From Deltaproteobacteria bacterium (GTDB lineage Bacteria; Bdellovibrionota; UBA2394): a stretch of 64,000 nucleotides of DNA. The translations under genes were made by a program, and so were the position numbers. The stretch is from positions 62,001 through 126,000 of the forward strand of contig JAFLCD010000006.1 of NCBI GenBank assembly GCA_017302715.1. The letters run 5' to 3'. Each line of letters starts with the position of its first letter. Positions within the stretch are counted from its first letter, which is position 1. The notes under the pieces were generated by a model. It had not been told where the DNA came from and ran no database searches. It saw only the letters and a program-made list of their open reading frames with translations. Shown piece by piece: positions 5,531 to 33,084 of this stretch.

Positions 5531-6790
5531 GTGCGAATTCTTTTGTTGATTGGTCCTGATCCGTGGATCGAGCTTTACCAAAGACCATTTTTAGATCTTG
5601 GACATGAAGTCAGTATTCTTCGTTTGGGAACTCTCACGAATGAGCAGATTGAAAAAGAAATTCGCGCGTTTGGTCCGCATTTCTGTCTTTGCCAAAGTTT
5701 GTTTCCTTTTGATCCGGGGACTACATCTCAAGGTGAGTTTTTGGAAGATCTGCTTTCACGTTTAAATATTCGTACAGCCGCCTGGATGGTGGACGGATTT
5801 TCTACAGGATCTTTGCCATTTCGCGAGAGATTTTTAAAAGCGAAATTGCCGCAGTCGGTGATTTATTTCTCTGTCGATCGGGGCCATCTATCTCTTTTTG
5901 AAAACGCAGGCGTAAAATCTTTTCATCTCCCGGTTGGCATTTCGAAAGAACTGGAGAGTATTAAAATAGGGCCCTTCAAAGATAAGTTGGAAGTCGCCTT
6001 TGTCGGCGCTCCTCCGCCTAATGCACTTCAGGCACCCCTCGCTTCGCGCGCACAGATTCTGCCAACTTTTCAGGCTTTCTTTTTAGTAGAGCTTTTTGAA
6101 TTCTTAAAATCAGTCATCGTCAAAAATCAACTTCAGTGGACTGAAATTCAGCTAATGGAAAAACTTTCGATTTTGGTTCCGTCGATCACTGAGTTCTTTC
6201 AGGCGGATGCAAATACAGCCAACTTTTTTGAGCAGATGAAAGCGAATTTACTTCAGAAAGCTAAAGAAGCTCTTGGAGAGCCTCTGTTTTTTTATTTTCA
6301 AATCTACGCGGATCTTTTAGATTTTTCATATTCTCATTATCAAATCACGGATCGTTTAAGTCGATTGAGCGAAACTCAAAATGTTCAAATTTTTGGAGGC
6401 GATCGTTGGCGGTCTTATCTTGGCCTTACACACGACACCCCCAAGCTTAGTTTATCTGAACTTTATTCCGTTTTTAAAAACGCCCCCATTTTAATCTGTC
6501 TCACCAAATGGCATTTTAAAACCGTGACTCATGAGCGGCCGCTCTTGACCTTGGCTTGCGGCGGATTTCCTTTAACGGATCATCGCGAAGAATTAAACGA
6601 GATGCTCTCTTCCGATGAAGTTGCGTCTTACTCTTCATACGAAGAAATGAGAGATAAAATTCAATTTTATTTAAATCATCCAGCTGAAAGAAATAAAATT
6701 TCAGCCGCAGGTAGAGCTCGAGTCTTTAAAGATCATACCTACCATCATCGAGCTCAAAAAATTTTAGAAGTAATGCAAAAAGAAATTTAA
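5531..6790 (+). CDS. CgeB-type glycosyltransferase, paralogue 1
   Basis: 419 residues, GTG start. The N-terminal Rossmann-like half opens with 'MRILLLIGPDP' and contains 'AAWMVDG'. The C-terminal part (about 300-415) has the CgeB / Glyco_trans_1_2 pattern: 'THERPLLTLACGGFPLTD', a 'SYSSYEEMRDKI' stretch and a final 'HTYHHRAQKIL'. A helical insert of about 110 residues separates the halves and ends in 'YSHYQ'. Family members transfer sugars from nucleotide donors; CgeB itself acts on spore surface glycans. It is one of three paralogues in this cluster. Its stop codon overlaps that of the convergent paralogue through a shared TTAA. Acceptor and donor cannot be read from the sequence. Confidence 0.85.
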   Translation: MRILLLIGPDPWIELYQRPFLDLGHEVSILRLGTLTNEQIEKEIRAFGPHFCLCQSLFPFDPGTTSQGEFLEDLLSRLNIRTAAWMVDGFSTGSLPFRERFLKAKLPQSVIYFSVDRGHLSLFENAGVKSFHLPVGISKELESIKIGPFKDKLEVAFVGAPPPNALQAPLASRAQILPTFQAFFLVELFEFLKSVIVKNQLQWTEIQLMEKLSILVPSITEFFQADANTANFFEQMKANLLQKAKEALGEPLFFYFQIYADLLDFSYSHYQITDRLSRLSETQNVQIFGGDRWRSYLGLTHDTPKLSLSELYSVFKNAPILICLTKWHFKTVTHERPLLTLACGGFPLTDHREELNEMLSSDEVASYSSYEEMRDKIQFYLNHPAERNKISAAGRARVFKDHTYHHRAQKILEVMQKEI

Positions 6791-8076
6791 GACCTTAATG
6801 CCCAATCCTTTTTCATCGTAGCGATGAGGCTTTTCATTCGATCGCGATAAGTATAATTTGCAAAAACTTTTTTACGGCCATTTTCTGCAATTCGTTTTCT
6901 TTCGGTTTCGTTCTGCAAATAAAATCGAATTTTGTCTTTAGCTTCATCGATCGTTGTATAAGTTGCGATTTCGTCCTGAGTAAACATCTCGTAAACTTCT
7001 TCTCGGCTATCAAGCAGTGGAAAACCACCTGCGCCTAAAACCCAAAAAGCTCGCTCTTGAACCGCTCCCCAGAAATGCCATTTGGTGAGTCCAAAATTAA
7101 TTTTGCTGTAGGCGAATTGGGCGTAGAGCTCTTGCTCACTTAAGCGAGGTTCAACTTGGTTGTAGCCGAGTAAAAGATTTTTCCAATCCATTCCACCATA
7201 AATTTTAATTTCAAAAGGTTTGAGCTCATTCAGATAAGCAGCCAACTGATAATGCGAATAAAAAAATGTCATTGCTGAAGAAAAGAAATTCCATTGGGAA
7301 TAAAGCCCTTCAGGAAGCAAATTCTTCATTTCATTATCTACTTGTTGATGTGCCTGATGAAAATCCTGAGGGGTTGTATAAAATTTTGAGAAAAAAGTTT
7401 CAACGGGCGCTACCATTTTTTCAACAAGCTCATGAAATTTTTCAGGTCGATGGATATGAACCATATCTTCGATGCGTTTAAGCTGCTGCGTAAACATTTG
7501 CAAAAAACCAATCAGAAAATTTTCTTTAAGCTCTTGAAGATTTTTTGCGGGAGCAGCATTATGGGTTGGAGTCCCACAAAAACTTAAGTTAGTTTCGAAT
7601 CTTGATTTAAGTTCTAAAGGCGCACGATAGCTTTCCATCCGATGATCTACACCCACTGGGAGGTGAAGAACCGGAAGTGCCCGATTTTTGAAAAAACTTA
7701 TATCTTTTCGATCCGCGCAAAAAAAGCTCATGAAATCTGGGGCGTAACCTTTTTGCCAGCGATCCTGACAAGCGTAGCTTCCAGATGATTGGGGCCCATC
7801 AACCATCCAAACGGCGGTAGGAATTTTTTCTGATTTTAAATAATCTTCCAATGGCAATGCCAATTTAGGACGAATCAAATCAAAGCAATGAAAATTTTCG
7901 GTGATACAAAAATCTGGTTTAAATTCTTTAAGAAATTTTAAAGTCGAATCGATTTCAGGATCTTTATCTTCGTTGATGGTTACCATTCGCGCTTCGTGAC
8001 CGAGAGCTTTAATGCCTTCACCCACGGTTTCAAGCCAAGCTCCCGTATGATCTAAAAGTGCAATTCGATAAGCCAT
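6787..8076 (-). CDS. CgeB-type glycosyltransferase, paralogue 2
   Basis: 429 residues. The layout matches paralogue 1: 'YRIALLDHTGAW' start, 'TAVWMVDGPQSSG', a helical insert ending in 'YSHYQLAAYL', 'IYGGMDW', then the C-terminal donor-binding-like region with 'VQERAFWVLGAGGFPLLD' and 'YTYRDRMKSL'. It is the last gene of a minus-strand run (dehydrogenase, SDR, C-methyltransferase, this gene), only 6 nt after the methyltransferase, so it probably uses or follows the sugar made by that set. It converges on paralogue 1 with a 4-bp stop overlap. The specific sugar is inferred only from context. Confidence 0.87.
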   Translation of the reverse strand: MAYRIALLDHTGAWLETVGEGIKALGHEARMVTINEDKDPEIDSTLKFLKEFKPDFCITENFHCFDLIRPKLALPLEDYLKSEKIPTAVWMVDGPQSSGSYACQDRWQKGYAPDFMSFFCADRKDISFFKNRALPVLHLPVGVDHRMESYRAPLELKSRFETNLSFCGTPTHNAAPAKNLQELKENFLIGFLQMFTQQLKRIEDMVHIHRPEKFHELVEKMVAPVETFFSKFYTTPQDFHQAHQQVDNEMKNLLPEGLYSQWNFFSSAMTFFYSHYQLAAYLNELKPFEIKIYGGMDWKNLLLGYNQVEPRLSEQELYAQFAYSKINFGLTKWHFWGAVQERAFWVLGAGGFPLLDSREEVYEMFTQDEIATYTTIDEAKDKIRFYLQNETERKRIAENGRKKVFANYTYRDRMKSLIATMKKDWALRS

Positions 8077-12015: not shown

Positions 12016-13122
12016 ATGAAACCTTGGTGGCAACCACATATCGGAGACCTAGAAGAAAAATTCGTTCTGGATGTTCTTCGCAGTCATTATATTAACGAAG
12101 GCCATCTCTGCACTGAGTTCGAGCAAAAATTATCTAAAATTTTAAACGTACCTTATGTCGTAGCGACCACAAGTGGCACCGCTTCGCTCTTTCTTTCTTT
12201 GGCAGCGCTTGGCGTGGGCCCGGGCGACGAAGTGATTGTTCCCGATTTTACGTTTATCGCAACTGCGAATGCCGCCCGTCTTACGGGTGCTAAAGTTGTG
12301 CTCGTGGACGTCGATCCAGAAACGTTGACGATGGATCCCGAAGCTTTTAAAGCCGCCATTACAAAAAATACCAAAGCTGTTATGCCCGTTCACGTCAGCG
12401 GGCGAGCGGCGCAGATGAAAGAAATTTTATCGATCGCTAAAGAAAAAAATATTTTCGTTGTCGAAGATGCTGCTGAAGCTCTTCTTTCAAAATATCAAGG
12501 TGCCAGTTTAGGAAGCTTAGGCGATTTAGGAATTCTTTCTTTTTCGGCAAATAAAATGATTACCATGGGTCAAGGTGGAGCGGTCTTAACATCCGACCGA
12601 AAACTTTACGAAAAAGTAAGAATGCTTAAAGATCATGGACGCCCCGTTCGAGGGACAGGCGGCAACGATATACATTTTATAACGGGGTATAATTTTAAAC
12701 TTACCAATTTGCAGGCTGCCGTTGGTTTAGCTCAACTTGAATACTTGCCTGGGCGCGCGAAGAGAGCTTCAGAGATTCAAAAGTTTTACCAAGAGGAGTT
12801 TAAATCTCTAGAAGGTTTAAAAATCCTTCCCTTCGAAAAAGAAGATCAACCACTTTGGACAGACGCTTTAAGTGATCAACGAGATGGGATCTGTTTGGCC
12901 TTAGAAAAAACAGGTTATGAGTGCAGAAAATTTTGGTATCCTCTTCACACTCAAGCACCGTATCAAACAAATGAAAGTTTATTGCAAACAGCCACTCATC
13001 TAGGCCCCAAAGCTTTTTGGCTGCCCTCTCATTTTCTTTTAACAGACAGCGATTTGGAAAAAATTTCTGAATCCGTAAAAACTTTTTTTAAACATAGAGA
13101 CCGAAAAGGAAAGGTCGAATGA
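12016..13122 (+). CDS. DegT/DnrJ/EryC1/StrS-family sugar aminotransferase
   Basis: 368 residues, a typical length for PLP-dependent sugar aminotransferases. Visible family features are 'TSGTASL' (phosphate contact), 'VEDAAEA' with Asp151, and the PLP lysine Lys180 in 'SFSANKMITMGQGG'. The enzyme moves an amino group from glutamate or aspartate to a keto-sugar nucleotide. It starts the plus-strand glycan operon and overlaps the next gene by 4 bp. With the 6-dehydrogenase opposite, an amino-uronic acid product is plausible but not proven. Confidence 0.92.
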   Translation: MKPWWQPHIGDLEEKFVLDVLRSHYINEGHLCTEFEQKLSKILNVPYVVATTSGTASLFLSLAALGVGPGDEVIVPDFTFIATANAARLTGAKVVLVDVDPETLTMDPEAFKAAITKNTKAVMPVHVSGRAAQMKEILSIAKEKNIFVVEDAAEALLSKYQGASLGSLGDLGILSFSANKMITMGQGGAVLTSDRKLYEKVRMLKDHGRPVRGTGGNDIHFITGYNFKLTNLQAAVGLAQLEYLPGRAKRASEIQKFYQEEFKSLEGLKILPFEKEDQPLWTDALSDQRDGICLALEKTGYECRKFWYPLHTQAPYQTNESLLQTATHLGPKAFWLPSHFLLTDSDLEKISESVKTFFKHRDRKGKVE

Positions 13123-14483
13123 AAGTTTTGCTGCTTCATAGCGTTGATCCTAGTTTTGAAGCTTACGCGAATATTTTCAATCAACTCGGGCACGAAGCCA
13201 TTCTGCTTCCCGTAAAAACTTCCTTTGTTGATTTAAGTGCGGCAATCGATAAATTTATTCCTGATTTTATTCTTATTAATAATACAGATCTATTCTCTCC
13301 GGAATGGCATCCAGATGCGTTGATGTTTGAACCTTATTTTGAGAAGAGAGGAATTCCTGTCGCCATCTGGGAATACGAAGCGCCCTATTTTGCCGGTGGT
13401 ATCACGCTGACATCTCGATGGAGAGATAAAAATTACTTAAAAAATATTTTCTTTTTTAGTTTAGATACTTATTGGGTTGAAAAATATAAAGAAGCGGGGC
13501 ATCGATGTCATTTTTTACCCTTTGGGGTAGACGAAAGAGTAGAGAATTTTTCTCCACCGGCTCATTTACTAAGCCAATTCAATCATGATCTGACGTATAT
13601 CGGAACCTGCTTCATTGATAGTAAGCCCGTCGACATAGAACCTTCTGAAGATGGTCTGCTTCATTTTTTCCTCGATAATTTTCGCCATACGATATTAAAT
13701 ATTCTTCATACATCTTGGGGCAGCCATCCAGACAATATAGCAGCCCTTCAAGATCTGGATGATAAGTTTGCTCCACCCATAGCCCAATTTTTAAAAATGG
13801 ATCTCGATGATCCTTATGAATATCAGAGATTATTTAAAATGATATGCGATAAATTATACGACACCTATCCCCAATTTTTTAAAATATCTTCTACGCCAAA
13901 AATTATTTTTGAAGTGAAATTTTTAATTTACTTCTCTTATTACCAAGTAGCAGCTCGACTTTTTCGACTGATAGACAAAGGCTTAAGAATTTACGGCGAG
14001 GGCGGATGGAATTCAATGTTTAGAAATTATTCACATCCTATTCGAAGACTTTCTTATCCAGAGATGTATGCGGCCTTTCGGGCGAGCAAAATAATTTTTT
14101 GTTATACTAAGAAATTGTTTATGAACAATGTGCATGAACGAGTTCCACATATTTTAGGTGCCGGAGGTTTTCCGCTCACCGACTACAGAAAAGATATCGA
14201 TCTGATGTTCGAGCCCGGAGAGGTCGCTACCTACAAATCATTTGAAGAAGCAAAATCATTAATAGATTTTTATAAAACTCACGATTCAGAGCGCTTGCGT
14301 ATTATTGAAAAGGGCAGAAAAAAAGTTTTTGCCAAACATACGTATAGAAAACGTGTAGAAGAAATTATCTCTGTCATAGGTAAAGAATTTGGAATATCAC
14401 AAGCTCCGCATCGATCCGTGATTTTTACATCTAATAATGAATGGATGGCGGACGTTTACCATCCACCTAAGGTAGAATTTTAA
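13119..14483 (+). CDS. CgeB-type glycosyltransferase, paralogue 3
   Basis: 454 residues, same build as the two other copies: 'MKVLLLHSVDPSFE' start, 'VAIWEYEAPYF' in place of the 'WMVDG' motif, a helical insert ending in 'FSYYQVAARL', then 'NNVHERVPHILGAGGFPLTD' and 'HTYRKRVEEI'. About 40 extra residues follow the catalytic region. It overlaps the aminotransferase gene by 4 bp. Its codon use differs from neighbours, with many ATA isoleucine and TTA leucine codons, which hints at a different origin. Donor and acceptor are unknown. Confidence 0.85.
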   Translation: MKVLLLHSVDPSFEAYANIFNQLGHEAILLPVKTSFVDLSAAIDKFIPDFILINNTDLFSPEWHPDALMFEPYFEKRGIPVAIWEYEAPYFAGGITLTSRWRDKNYLKNIFFFSLDTYWVEKYKEAGHRCHFLPFGVDERVENFSPPAHLLSQFNHDLTYIGTCFIDSKPVDIEPSEDGLLHFFLDNFRHTILNILHTSWGSHPDNIAALQDLDDKFAPPIAQFLKMDLDDPYEYQRLFKMICDKLYDTYPQFFKISSTPKIIFEVKFLIYFSYYQVAARLFRLIDKGLRIYGEGGWNSMFRNYSHPIRRLSYPEMYAAFRASKIIFCYTKKLFMNNVHERVPHILGAGGFPLTDYRKDIDLMFEPGEVATYKSFEEAKSLIDFYKTHDSERLRIIEKGRKKVFAKHTYRKRVEEIISVIGKEFGISQAPHRSVIFTSNNEWMADVYHPPKVEF

Positions 14484-29766: not shown

Positions 29767-30309
29767 TTAGCGGGGCTTCGAAGGCGCGCCTTTTTTTATA
29801 ATCTCTTCTATTTTTTTTCCAAAACTTGCCATCGTTCTCTTTTTGACTTTTTTTCCTGGTCGAACAGGGCTTGGATTTTTTTCTACTAAAATATACTCTT
29901 TCAATTTTGCATCCCACTCGATGAGTTCAACTCCCTGAGTCCAAGATGTAATCGTAAAAGTGTCTTTAGGTGAGCCTCTCCAAAGATAGAGGATCACTTT
30001 TTGGTGAGAATGAAGATTAGGAGCGGATGGCACCGTTACTTTTCGGCCTTTGTAAGAACCTCCGGGCCATTGAATGGTGTAAATTGTCCCTGTTTGTCCA
30101 CCTTTCCAGCATTCAATGGCTTTAGCTTTTGCTGTGCTTACAATCGTTTTATTCACTTCATTTGATTTCACTTCGAGTAAATCAAATGCGCAGATCATTT
30201 CAGAATCAAAAATCATTTGATTTGGTGTCTGAGCAATAAAGGTGGCGGCGAAGCTTGCACTTAAACTAGTTATAAAAAAAAGAAGGAGGGTGCTTATGCT
30301 TCTCAACAT
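29767..30309 (-). CDS. Small exported beta-rich protein
   Basis: 180 residues from the ATG at 30309, chosen because the signal peptide 'LRSISTLLLFFITSLS' begins there; a longer frame starts at 30375. The mature part has a pattern of the kind 'KAIECWKGG', 'IQWPGG', 'KVILYLWRG', 'SWTQGVELI'. I have seen comparable W-K-G / P-G-G / S-Q-G patterns in secreted proteins of predatory bacteria and myxobacteria, but I cannot name a family. The last 35 residues are Lys-rich. Confidence 0.65.
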   Translation of the reverse strand: MLRSISTLLLFFITSLSASFAATFIAQTPNQMIFDSEMICAFDLLEVKSNEVNKTIVSTAKAKAIECWKGGQTGTIYTIQWPGGSYKGRKVTVPSAPNLHSHQKVILYLWRGSPKDTFTITSWTQGVELIEWDAKLKEYILVEKNPSPVRPGKKVKKRTMASFGKKIEEIIKKGAPSKPR

Positions 30310-30384
30310 GAGGTCTAAGTTTATATCAGATAAAATATTCAGATAAGCCTTTTCAGACGAAATGATTCTGGGCAAATTTGGAAT

Positions 30385-31128
30385 ATGATGAAAACTCCTT
30401 CCTTTATAGGTTTTGGACCCTTTCTGGCGGTTTTAGTCAGTTTATTTTTTTCGAATGCATGGGCCGTTGAAGACGTTGAAGATGTGAAAATTTCTCCGGA
30501 TGCTGCACCTTCTGTCGAATCCAATCCAGAGATTTCGCAATCTCTCAGAGAAGAAAAAGCAAAGTTGCTTCAAATTTTGAAAGGTGAAGTCGAGCCCAAT
30601 TTAGTAAAAGGCGATATCGAAAAACTTCAACGTAATGTCATGAGGCTCGGCAGCTATCGCAAAGATTGGGTGCTAAAAAGTCAGAGCACTTTGTTAGCAA
30701 ATCCCGCACTTTCGGAATTATATATTTACAGATATGCCACTGTAAAAAATGAAAGATTGAATCAGGCTCTTTTAGATACTTTGTTGCAATTTAATAATTT
30801 TAGATTTCCTCGTGCGACTTTGGCATTTGCAGATGATTTGGCTAAGACTCCAGCCGATAAAATTAAATATCTTTCATTGGTTGCAAAAGCAGCTCAACAA
30901 GATCCTTCTTTGACGGCCGAAGCTTTTCAACTTTTGATGTCCGATTGGGGCAAAGAAATTCCCGTAGAATCTAAACTTTATTTTGCCGAAAAAGTTTGTG
31001 GGCGTTTACCGAGAGTATCTAATTTTGCTCAAGTTCGAGCCGCACTCGATGAATGGATGGCTTCGAGTGGAGAAATTTGGAACAAAATTGTTTCTGCTGA
31101 AGTCCATGCTTGCCTTCGCGGAGGTTGA
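30385..31128 (+). CDS. Exported helical protein, first gene of a coupled envelope operon
   Basis: 247 residues, signal peptide ending near 'NAWAVED', then an acidic linker and a mostly helical domain with HEAT/TPR-like helix pairs. No catalytic motif. Two adjacent ATG codons (30385, 30388). Its 3' end overlaps the next gene by 19 bp, so all three genes to 33084 are translationally coupled. Function unknown; probably periplasmic. Confidence 0.7.
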   Translation: MMKTPSFIGFGPFLAVLVSLFFSNAWAVEDVEDVKISPDAAPSVESNPEISQSLREEKAKLLQILKGEVEPNLVKGDIEKLQRNVMRLGSYRKDWVLKSQSTLLANPALSELYIYRYATVKNERLNQALLDTLLQFNNFRFPRATLAFADDLAKTPADKIKYLSLVAKAAQQDPSLTAEAFQLLMSDWGKEIPVESKLYFAEKVCGRLPRVSNFAQVRAALDEWMASSGEIWNKIVSAEVHACLRGG

Positions 31129-32198
31129 ACCTGATTTCTAAATCCAAAGCTCGAATAGTTGTTAGCGATCTTCATTTAGGGGAAGGCCGGCGAAATTGGG
31201 ACGGCTCTCTCAATGTGCTCGAAGACTTTCTCGTCGATCGAAGATTTGCCGAGTTTTTAGATTTTTATTCACGCGCCTATGACGAAGTAGAGATTGTTCT
31301 CAATGGAAATTTTTTCGAAATGCTTCGCTGTCGCGCTGTCATTGATTATCCCGATATTGTGTTTGAAACCTATGCCGTAGAGATGATTCGCGTAGCGATG
31401 GAAGGTCACGTAGAAGTTGTCGACGCTTTAAAACGTTTTATGGAAAACCCGGCGCATTCGATTGTCTATATTATCGGAGAAGCAGACGTCGGAGTTTTTT
31501 GGCCCAAAGTTCAGCAGGAACTTCGAGAAAAAATTTCAGATCGAATTAAATTCTATGACAGTTTTTATTTTGAGAGTGGCATTCATATCGAGCATGGCCA
31601 TCAGTATGAAGCGATGCATGCGATCGATGTCAAAGAGCCTTTTAAAGATGCTGAGATGCTGCGAGTTTTGAAGTTGCCATGGGGAGCTTTTTTTAACGCC
31701 CATTTTATTCAGCCACTTCGAAAAATCCGTCCACAGTTTTATAGAGTTCGTCCGATGCAAAATTATCTGATGTGGGCGCTCATTTTTGAAACGCGGTTTC
31801 TTTTTAAAGTGATTATGCAGTTTATTCGTATGCTTTTTTCGGCTCGTTCGAGAAGTCTCTATCCCGGGAATTCTTGGGTGACGGTCTTTCGAATTTTTTC
31901 GCAGGCTGCAGATACAGAAGCTCTCGAAGAGTATGCAGAAATTTTATTGTCTTCGGATTCTGTAAAAAAAGTTATTTTTGGGCACAGCCATATTCCAAAT
32001 TACAGACAGTTTGAAAATGGAAAGGAATATTTTAATGCCGGCACTTGGACGAGAAATCTAAGTCTCGACTTGAGGTCGCTCGGAGCTTTTCATCGACTCA
32101 CTTATATTTTGATCGAGTTTCGAGGAGAGGGTGCTGATCCTCAAGCCAAGTTGATGGAATGGTACGGAAGGCATGAGGTGATTGAGGATTATGTTTAA
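31110..32198 (+). CDS. Metallophosphoesterase-fold protein with substituted catalytic motifs
   Basis: 362 residues, no signal peptide. The calcineurin-like order is clear: 'SDLHLG' (Asp20, His22), 'LNGNFFE' (65-70), 'IIGEAD' (121-126), 'HGHQYE' (His162, His164) and 'GHSH' (291-294). In active enzymes the second and third motifs read GDxxD/E and GNHD. Here the bridging Asp is Asn67, the metal-binding Asn is Glu124 and the catalytic His is Ala125. Relatives include LpxH-like UDP-diacylglucosamine hydrolases. The protein probably binds at most one metal and may be a pseudoenzyme. The start is uncertain: GGAGG at 31120-31124 lies inside the frame, just before a TTG (31125). Confidence 0.8.
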   Translation: MPSRRLNLISKSKARIVVSDLHLGEGRRNWDGSLNVLEDFLVDRRFAEFLDFYSRAYDEVEIVLNGNFFEMLRCRAVIDYPDIVFETYAVEMIRVAMEGHVEVVDALKRFMENPAHSIVYIIGEADVGVFWPKVQQELREKISDRIKFYDSFYFESGIHIEHGHQYEAMHAIDVKEPFKDAEMLRVLKLPWGAFFNAHFIQPLRKIRPQFYRVRPMQNYLMWALIFETRFLFKVIMQFIRMLFSARSRSLYPGNSWVTVFRIFSQAADTEALEEYAEILLSSDSVKKVIFGHSHIPNYRQFENGKEYFNAGTWTRNLSLDLRSLGAFHRLTYILIEFRGEGADPQAKLMEWYGRHEVIEDYV

Positions 32199-33084
32199 AA
32201 ATTTTGTTTCTCTTTTTGGGTGTTTCATTGCGAGTTCAAATTTGTGGGCGCATTCTCTCGAGACAGAAAGTAGATTCGGCGAAAACCATTATTCTCAAGC
32301 GATTTATTATTCTGGCAAATCGCAGGTCGACGATCTTTCTCAGTGGCTTTGGAATATCGATTTTCAATTTGCTCGTACAACCGTCACTGACGATGCAGTT
32401 TTCACAAAAAAAATTATCGATCGAACTTTTACCGGCACATTTGGTTTTGGATACGATTCCATTTGGTCTGGTGGCGTTTCGTTTGATTTTTCTAGAACTC
32501 CAGAAGAAAAACTTACAAATCTGGGCCCGCTTTTTTATATGGGAAGAAAGTTTGATTGGAAGTCTTTAAGACTCAAGGCTTCTGGAGGTTTTGAATCTTA
32601 TACTCAAGATGTTGAATCTCAACCTCGAAGGCGTTCCATTACGCTTCGAAGAAGTTTTAAATTTCTTCAAACGTCTTTAGGTTTTTTTGCTTCTTTAGAT
32701 CCTGCCGAGTGGCTCAATATTTCTGCTGGGTATATCCAATATTTTTATTCTCGCGATATTGCAACTTTGGTGAATAATTTAGATTCAAAGAGGGTAATCG
32801 CTCAGACCACTTCGGGTTTATCATCGACTCTTTCGAATTTTGCAAAAAACTCCATTTCAACGACATTTAATTTTTATCCTTATGATATTTGGGAGCTCGC
32901 TATGGGGGGCGTATTATCTCGGCTTGAATCAGAAGCACGATGGGTGAAAATTTTGCAAATCTCAACACGATATGAACTTTTTAAAGCTTGGAGTCTTGGC
33001 GTCGGATACGAGCGAAGTTTTAATGGTTCATCATTGGATCCTGATCAAAATCTTTACTCGGCTCAAATCGGCTTTCGCTTCTGA
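32191..33084 (+). CDS. Outer-membrane beta-barrel protein
   Basis: 297 residues from the ATG at 32191, which has GAGG-type Shine-Dalgarno sequences upstream; a TTG at 32182 is less likely. A short signal peptide ends near 'NLWAHS'. The rest is a run of amphipathic alternating strands rich in Tyr, Phe, Trp and Ser, ending in 'QIGFRF' with a C-terminal Phe, the recognition signal for barrel assembly. The start overlaps the preceding gene by 8 bp. Substrate or role unknown. Confidence 0.75.
   Translation: MFKNFVSLFGCFIASSNLWAHSLETESRFGENHYSQAIYYSGKSQVDDLSQWLWNIDFQFARTTVTDDAVFTKKIIDRTFTGTFGFGYDSIWSGGVSFDFSRTPEEKLTNLGPLFYMGRKFDWKSLRLKASGGFESYTQDVESQPRRRSITLRRSFKFLQTSLGFFASLDPAEWLNISAGYIQYFYSRDIATLVNNLDSKRVIAQTTSGLSSTLSNFAKNSISTTFNFYPYDIWELAMGGVLSRLESEARWVKILQISTRYELFKAWSLGVGYERSFNGSSLDPDQNLYSAQIGFRF

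Follow-up and report, generated by a model that had tools for sequence, protein, structure and literature searches.

Does a calcineurin-like phosphoesterase that has lost catalytic residues persist in a bacterium as an enzyme, as a regulator or as a relic? The question is raised by a gene in the window, the 64,000-nucleotide stretch of DNA analysed here, which is part of a 2.39-Mb draft genome (96% complete) whose closest named relatives carry the family label Bacteriovoracaceae (phylum Bdellovibrionota). The best-known inactive members of the calcineurin-like superfamily are eukaryotic and archaeal (VPS29, the polymerase small subunits), and a literature search for calcineurin-like metallophosphoesterase pseudoenzymes found no paper. 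The family of the window genome, termed f1, is represented by five genomes (G000–G004) of five genera, all within that one family, and is related to predatory Bdellovibrio. The three overlapping ORFs described in an earlier note on this DNA are present, and a divergent gene lies beside them:

29767 to 30375, minus strand: divergently encoded exported protein whose place beside the gene 1–gene 2 pair is conserved (cluster 20: window, L007, L009 and L010), with a similar ORF in L005.
30385 to 31128, plus strand: gene 1, a predicted exported protein of 247 aa that matches no Pfam or NCBIfam family and always lies directly 5ʹ of the degenerate phosphoesterase.
31110 to 32198, plus strand: gene 2, a calcineurin-like phosphoesterase paralogue without catalytic residues, with its start at TTG 31110 or TTG 31125.
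32191 to 33084, plus strand: gene 3, a putative outer-membrane barrel starting at ATG 32191, with an 8-bp overlap with gene 2; non-syntenic in relatives.

Judged by sequence, gene 2 belongs to a family of calcineurin-like phosphoesterases spread through much of the Bdellovibrionota. In a profile search against metallophosphoesterase families, the kind of check proposed in the earlier note, gene 2 itself falls below the PF00149 cut-off (14.7 bits against 21.5 in Pfam), whereas a second gene in the same genome (C14:11453-12517), 37% identical to it across nearly the whole length, passes with 26.4 bits. PF00149 is also matched at E ≤ 0.01 by 51 of the 60 homologues in the alignment, which comprises five degenerate proteins and 55 others. 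Full-length homology to proteins above the cut-off thus places gene 2 in the superfamily by descent. Relatives, mostly full-length, occur in 48 of the 59 related genomes searched; when 369 genomes of the phylum were scanned, only the five f1 orthologues came out at 61% identity or more, with the next matches at no more than 40%, and a scan of viral_contigs found no further relatives. A phmmer search of gene 2 against the PDB returned only chance matches to designed helical repeats, and an AlphaFold2 model built with two homologues as input had a pLDDT of 42.6.

What sets gene 2 apart is its active site. Metal-ligand roles were assigned from LpxH, whose Asp8, His10, Asp41, Asn79, His114, His195 and His197 match gene 2 residues 20, 22, 67, 124, 162, 292 and 294 by motif, with 20, 22 and 294 forming site 1 (PMC5016852). 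Residue 125, the histidine of GNHD, lies outside this mapping; with it, eight positions concerned with two-metal binding or leaving-group protonation were scored, numbered from TTG 31110. They fall in five motifs:

31164 to 31181, plus strand: motif I, SDLHLG (residues 19–24); the site 1 ligands Asp20 and His22 are retained in 60/60 homologues.
31302 to 31319, plus strand: motif II, NGNFFE (residues 65–70); Asn67 (31308-31310) replaces the bridging Asp in 5/5 of the degenerate clade, with Asp in 55/55 others.
31476 to 31487, plus strand: motif III, GEAD (residues 123–126); Glu124 replaces the site 2 Asn (5/5) and Ala125 (Ser in one orthologue) the catalytic His, with Asn-His in 55/55 others.
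31593 to 31604, plus strand: motif IV, HGHQ (residues 162–165); the site 2 ligand His162 is retained in 60/60.
31980 to 31991, plus strand: motif V, GHSH (residues 291–294); His292 (site 2) is Tyr in 2/5 orthologues, and His294 (site 1) is retained in 60/60.

The motifs reported in the earlier note were thus found in the translation, with NGNFFE and GEAD standing for GDxxD/N and GNHD, and the residues that it singled out for a conservation check behave as a shared feature of the clade. Bridging Asp, site 2 Asn and catalytic His are jointly replaced in all five f1 orthologues and in 0/55 other homologues, and the latter, which include a second copy in every f1 genome (L026–L030), are intact at all eight positions. 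An active PF00149 enzyme is defined by seven metal ligands and the catalytic His; four of the seven are kept throughout the degenerate clade, and the His is Ala or Ser. The two orthologues with Tyr292 (L007 and L010) are not sisters in the tree and site 1 is invariant, so site 2 looks relaxed. Read through the LpxH assignment, then, site 1 retains its full set of predicted ligands; the bridge is altered, and site 2 is both altered and relaxed. With losses in every family member and site 1 ligands kept without exception, the suggestion of a pseudoenzyme or one-metal variant is well supported by the sequences.

These losses, together with a long stem branch, are what would be expected of a decaying duplicate heading for loss, its motif changes the product of neutral erosion. 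That account has very little left to recommend it: the reading frame is open in five genera at 61–75% identity, and many residues are invariant, Asn67 and Glu124 among them. Degenerate copies differ at nonsynonymous sites (pN 0.16–0.29) far less than at synonymous ones (pS 0.72–0.89; dS is saturated, and the contrast is one of pN with pS, with no claim about dN/dS), and the intact paralogue has similar values (pN 0.16–0.23), which argues against decay. Conservation across five genera largely refutes neutral erosion, and the degenerate copy appears to be a maintained gene under purifying selection.

In the tree, the degenerate five form one clade (support 100/100) on a stem of 1.75 changes per column, and the intact f1 copies form a separate clade (100/100) on a stem of 0.55; within-clade branch lengths are alike for the two groups, except for L010. 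Constraining both f1 groups to a single clade gives a tree no worse than the unconstrained one (p-AU 0.489). The data are therefore compatible with a duplication in the ancestor of f1 but do not prove it, and the long stem may blur whether it fell within f1. The ancestral activity would still be supplied in all five genomes, since each keeps a separate intact copy. A conserved bacterial inactive member beside an intact paralogue in the same genome would offer a clean natural test of what the fold does without catalysis.

The reading preferred here, with a probability of roughly 0.6, is that gene 2 is a pseudoenzyme, specific to f1 and neofunctionalised, that arose as a copy within a calcineurin-like phosphoesterase family found phylum-wide and linked to c-di-GMP. 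Its main rival is a rewired enzyme, in which the carboxylate missing at Asn67 is supplied by Glu124, and catalysis of some other phosphoester or pyrophosphate reaction relies on one metal at site 1 or on an atypical pair. Asn67 and Glu124 are both invariant in the clade, which suggests a reciprocal amide/carboxylate exchange rather than drift; D67N with N124E could rebuild a metal site instead of abolishing it, and there is equally no variation at the site 1 ligands, at His162 or at Asp126 in the second shell. However, all five proteins have Ala or Ser in place of the proton-donor His, a site 2 ligand (His292) is Tyr in two of them, and to our knowledge no characterised member of the superfamily works with such a residue set. 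Gene 2 may still hydrolyse a substrate with four of seven ligands in place, and the sequence is compatible with both readings; on balance a rewired enzyme is unlikely, though it deserves to be taken seriously.

For the pseudoenzyme reading, VPS29 provides a solved precedent: it has the same fold, its metal binding is vestigial, and it serves as a scaffold independently of metal (PMC3101248). VPS29 chains were the best match of the family profile in the PDB, a very weak one (E 0.011) that ran through motif V only. The likeness to VPS29 of the retromer, and to other inactive scaffolds with the phosphoesterase fold, would lie in a degenerate active site that serves as a binding surface; VPS29 differs in being eukaryotic and about 185 aa long, and its losses are unlike those of gene 2.

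The c-di-GMP link comes from the intact relatives. Of the 33 that share gene 2's half of the tree, 21 are directly preceded by a GGDEF gene and 4 have one downstream. The upstream gene of L032 (one upstream gene scanned) encodes a response-regulator/GGDEF protein, and the gene downstream of L018 encodes an FHA-GGDEF protein resembling DgcB; GGDEF genes also lie downstream of L011, L019 and L025. A broader arrangement was observed in most families (L011, L018, L019, L025 and others), where the neighbours of the intact phosphoesterase are coiled-coil/receiver and GGDEF genes, together forming what looks like a conserved c-di-GMP-linked cluster. Meek et al. 2019 (PMC6733907) reported that the Bdellovibrio operon containing dgcB/bd0742 also includes bd0740, for a putative calcineurin-like phosphatase. 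The intact family is probably Bd0740-like and tied to c-di-GMP signalling, the likeness to Bd0740 being drawn from operon position and description. Its members adjoin cyclase genes of the kind that controls predation in Bdellovibrio.

Gene 2 shares with the Bd0740 system its full-length homology, at about 30–40% identity, to the intact relatives that have this phosphoesterase–GGDEF neighbourhood, but differs in having neither the catalytic residues nor a GGDEF neighbour. An adjacent GGDEF gene was found at 0/5 degenerate and 0/5 intact f1 copies; GGDEF proteins are encoded in all five f1 genomes. One intact f1 copy (L028:3646-5536) lies between hflX-like and fliL/M/N/O-like flagellar genes, behind an overlapping exported gene that bears no relation to gene 1 (hhalign probability 0.2%).

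Of the two kinds of ligand proposed for gene 2 in the earlier note, a nucleotide signal would suit the GGDEF neighbourhood of the intact relatives better than a lipid-A-like molecule. The latter is disfavoured, because the proteins of the lipid A and LPS pathway that were sought are undetected in all five f1 genomes: LpxB was above cut-off in 0/5 against 53/54 others, WaaA was found in 0/5 against 18/19, LpxC in 0/5 against 14/19 and LptD in 0/5 against 13/19. Searches for LpxC and LptD also miss some genomes outside f1, and it is LpxB and WaaA that carry the argument. LpxI is absent from all 59 genomes, and Omp85 is present in 5/5 f1 genomes. The f1 outer membrane may thus be devoid of LPS, an apparent loss across a whole family that is of interest in itself, as nearly all others in the phylum have LpxB.

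This pattern also weighs against the idea that gene 2 is a lipid-A-linked sensor or an LpxH-like protein. Gene 2 and LpxH (UDP-2,3-diacylglucosamine diphosphatase) share their superfamily, the order of the five motifs and the wide spacing of motifs IV and V. In gene 2 a hydrophobic or amphipathic segment (residues 220–245) is reminiscent of the LpxH helical insert; seven of the 60 members also resemble the LpxH model weakly, below threshold. Gene 2, however, lacks three key residues and scores 11.8 bits against the NCBIfam LpxH model (cut-off 134), and ORFs of 250–280 aa outside the family, weakly similar to gene 2, would be more plausible as the LpxH of relatives that have LPS. Assignment to LpxH calls for a match to this equivalog model and a lipid A pathway in the organism; gene 2 is far under the cut-off and no such pathway was found in its genome, and a role of this kind is very improbable. 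The intact family was also considered as the LpxH of the phylum and rejected for that role: f1 retains the family in the apparent absence of lipid A, and most genomes of families f2, f4, f10 and f13 have LpxB but not this phosphoesterase.

The three genes had been taken as a coupled envelope operon, and this holds for the first two. A gene 1 homologue (35–45% identity) lies directly upstream of gene 2 in 5/5 f1 genomes and has an N-terminal hydrophobic stretch in each, consistent with the export attributed to it. Gene 3 is missing beside the gene 2 orthologue in the four other f1 genomes, its best homologue (36% identity) sitting elsewhere in G002; the conserved unit is hence gene 1 with gene 2, of which gene 3 is probably not a part. 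The 8-bp overlap between genes 2 and 3 is accordingly real in the window genome and has no counterpart at the orthologous place in the other four. The barrel assignment of gene 3 was made from a signal-like N-terminus and a terminal Phe, and no Pfam family matches it. The 19-bp overlap of genes 1 and 2 stands if translation starts at TTG 31110 and shrinks to 4 bp (TTGA, at the stop of gene 1) if it starts at TTG 31125, a start that is at least as likely, since orthologues begin 0 to about 16 nt past the end of gene 1.

Under the pseudoenzyme reading, gene 2 probably descends from a phosphatase or phosphodiesterase that used two metals and was encoded beside diguanylate cyclases, in the manner of Bd0740 and dgcB. 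In the f1 ancestor, one copy would have shed the Asp of the bridge, the Asn of site 2 and the catalytic His while retaining Asp20, His22 and His294 of site 1 and the frame of the pocket, and would have become paired with gene 1, an exported and apparently helical protein. The product of gene 2 would have ceased to hydrolyse and would bind one metal, the ancestral ligand or partner, or both, at the inner face of the cytoplasmic membrane, acting as a ligand-gated or scaffold regulator much as VPS29 does with its vestigial site; a link across the membrane to gene 1 is conceivable. The boldest version, a long shot, starts from a lineage that shed LPS but kept an outer membrane. There, a duplicate of a c-di-GMP-linked phosphatase would have become either a regulator gated by a ligand or an enzyme whose metal centre was rewired around Asn67 and Glu124; in partnership with an envelope protein, it would make up a bacterial receptor of phosphoesterase fold.

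Elsewhere in the window, three ORFs (5531-6790, 6787-8076 and 13119-14483) look alike by eye, with similar motifs near both ends; they lie among genes for sugar-nucleotide enzymes and are possibly glycosyltransferase-like paralogues.
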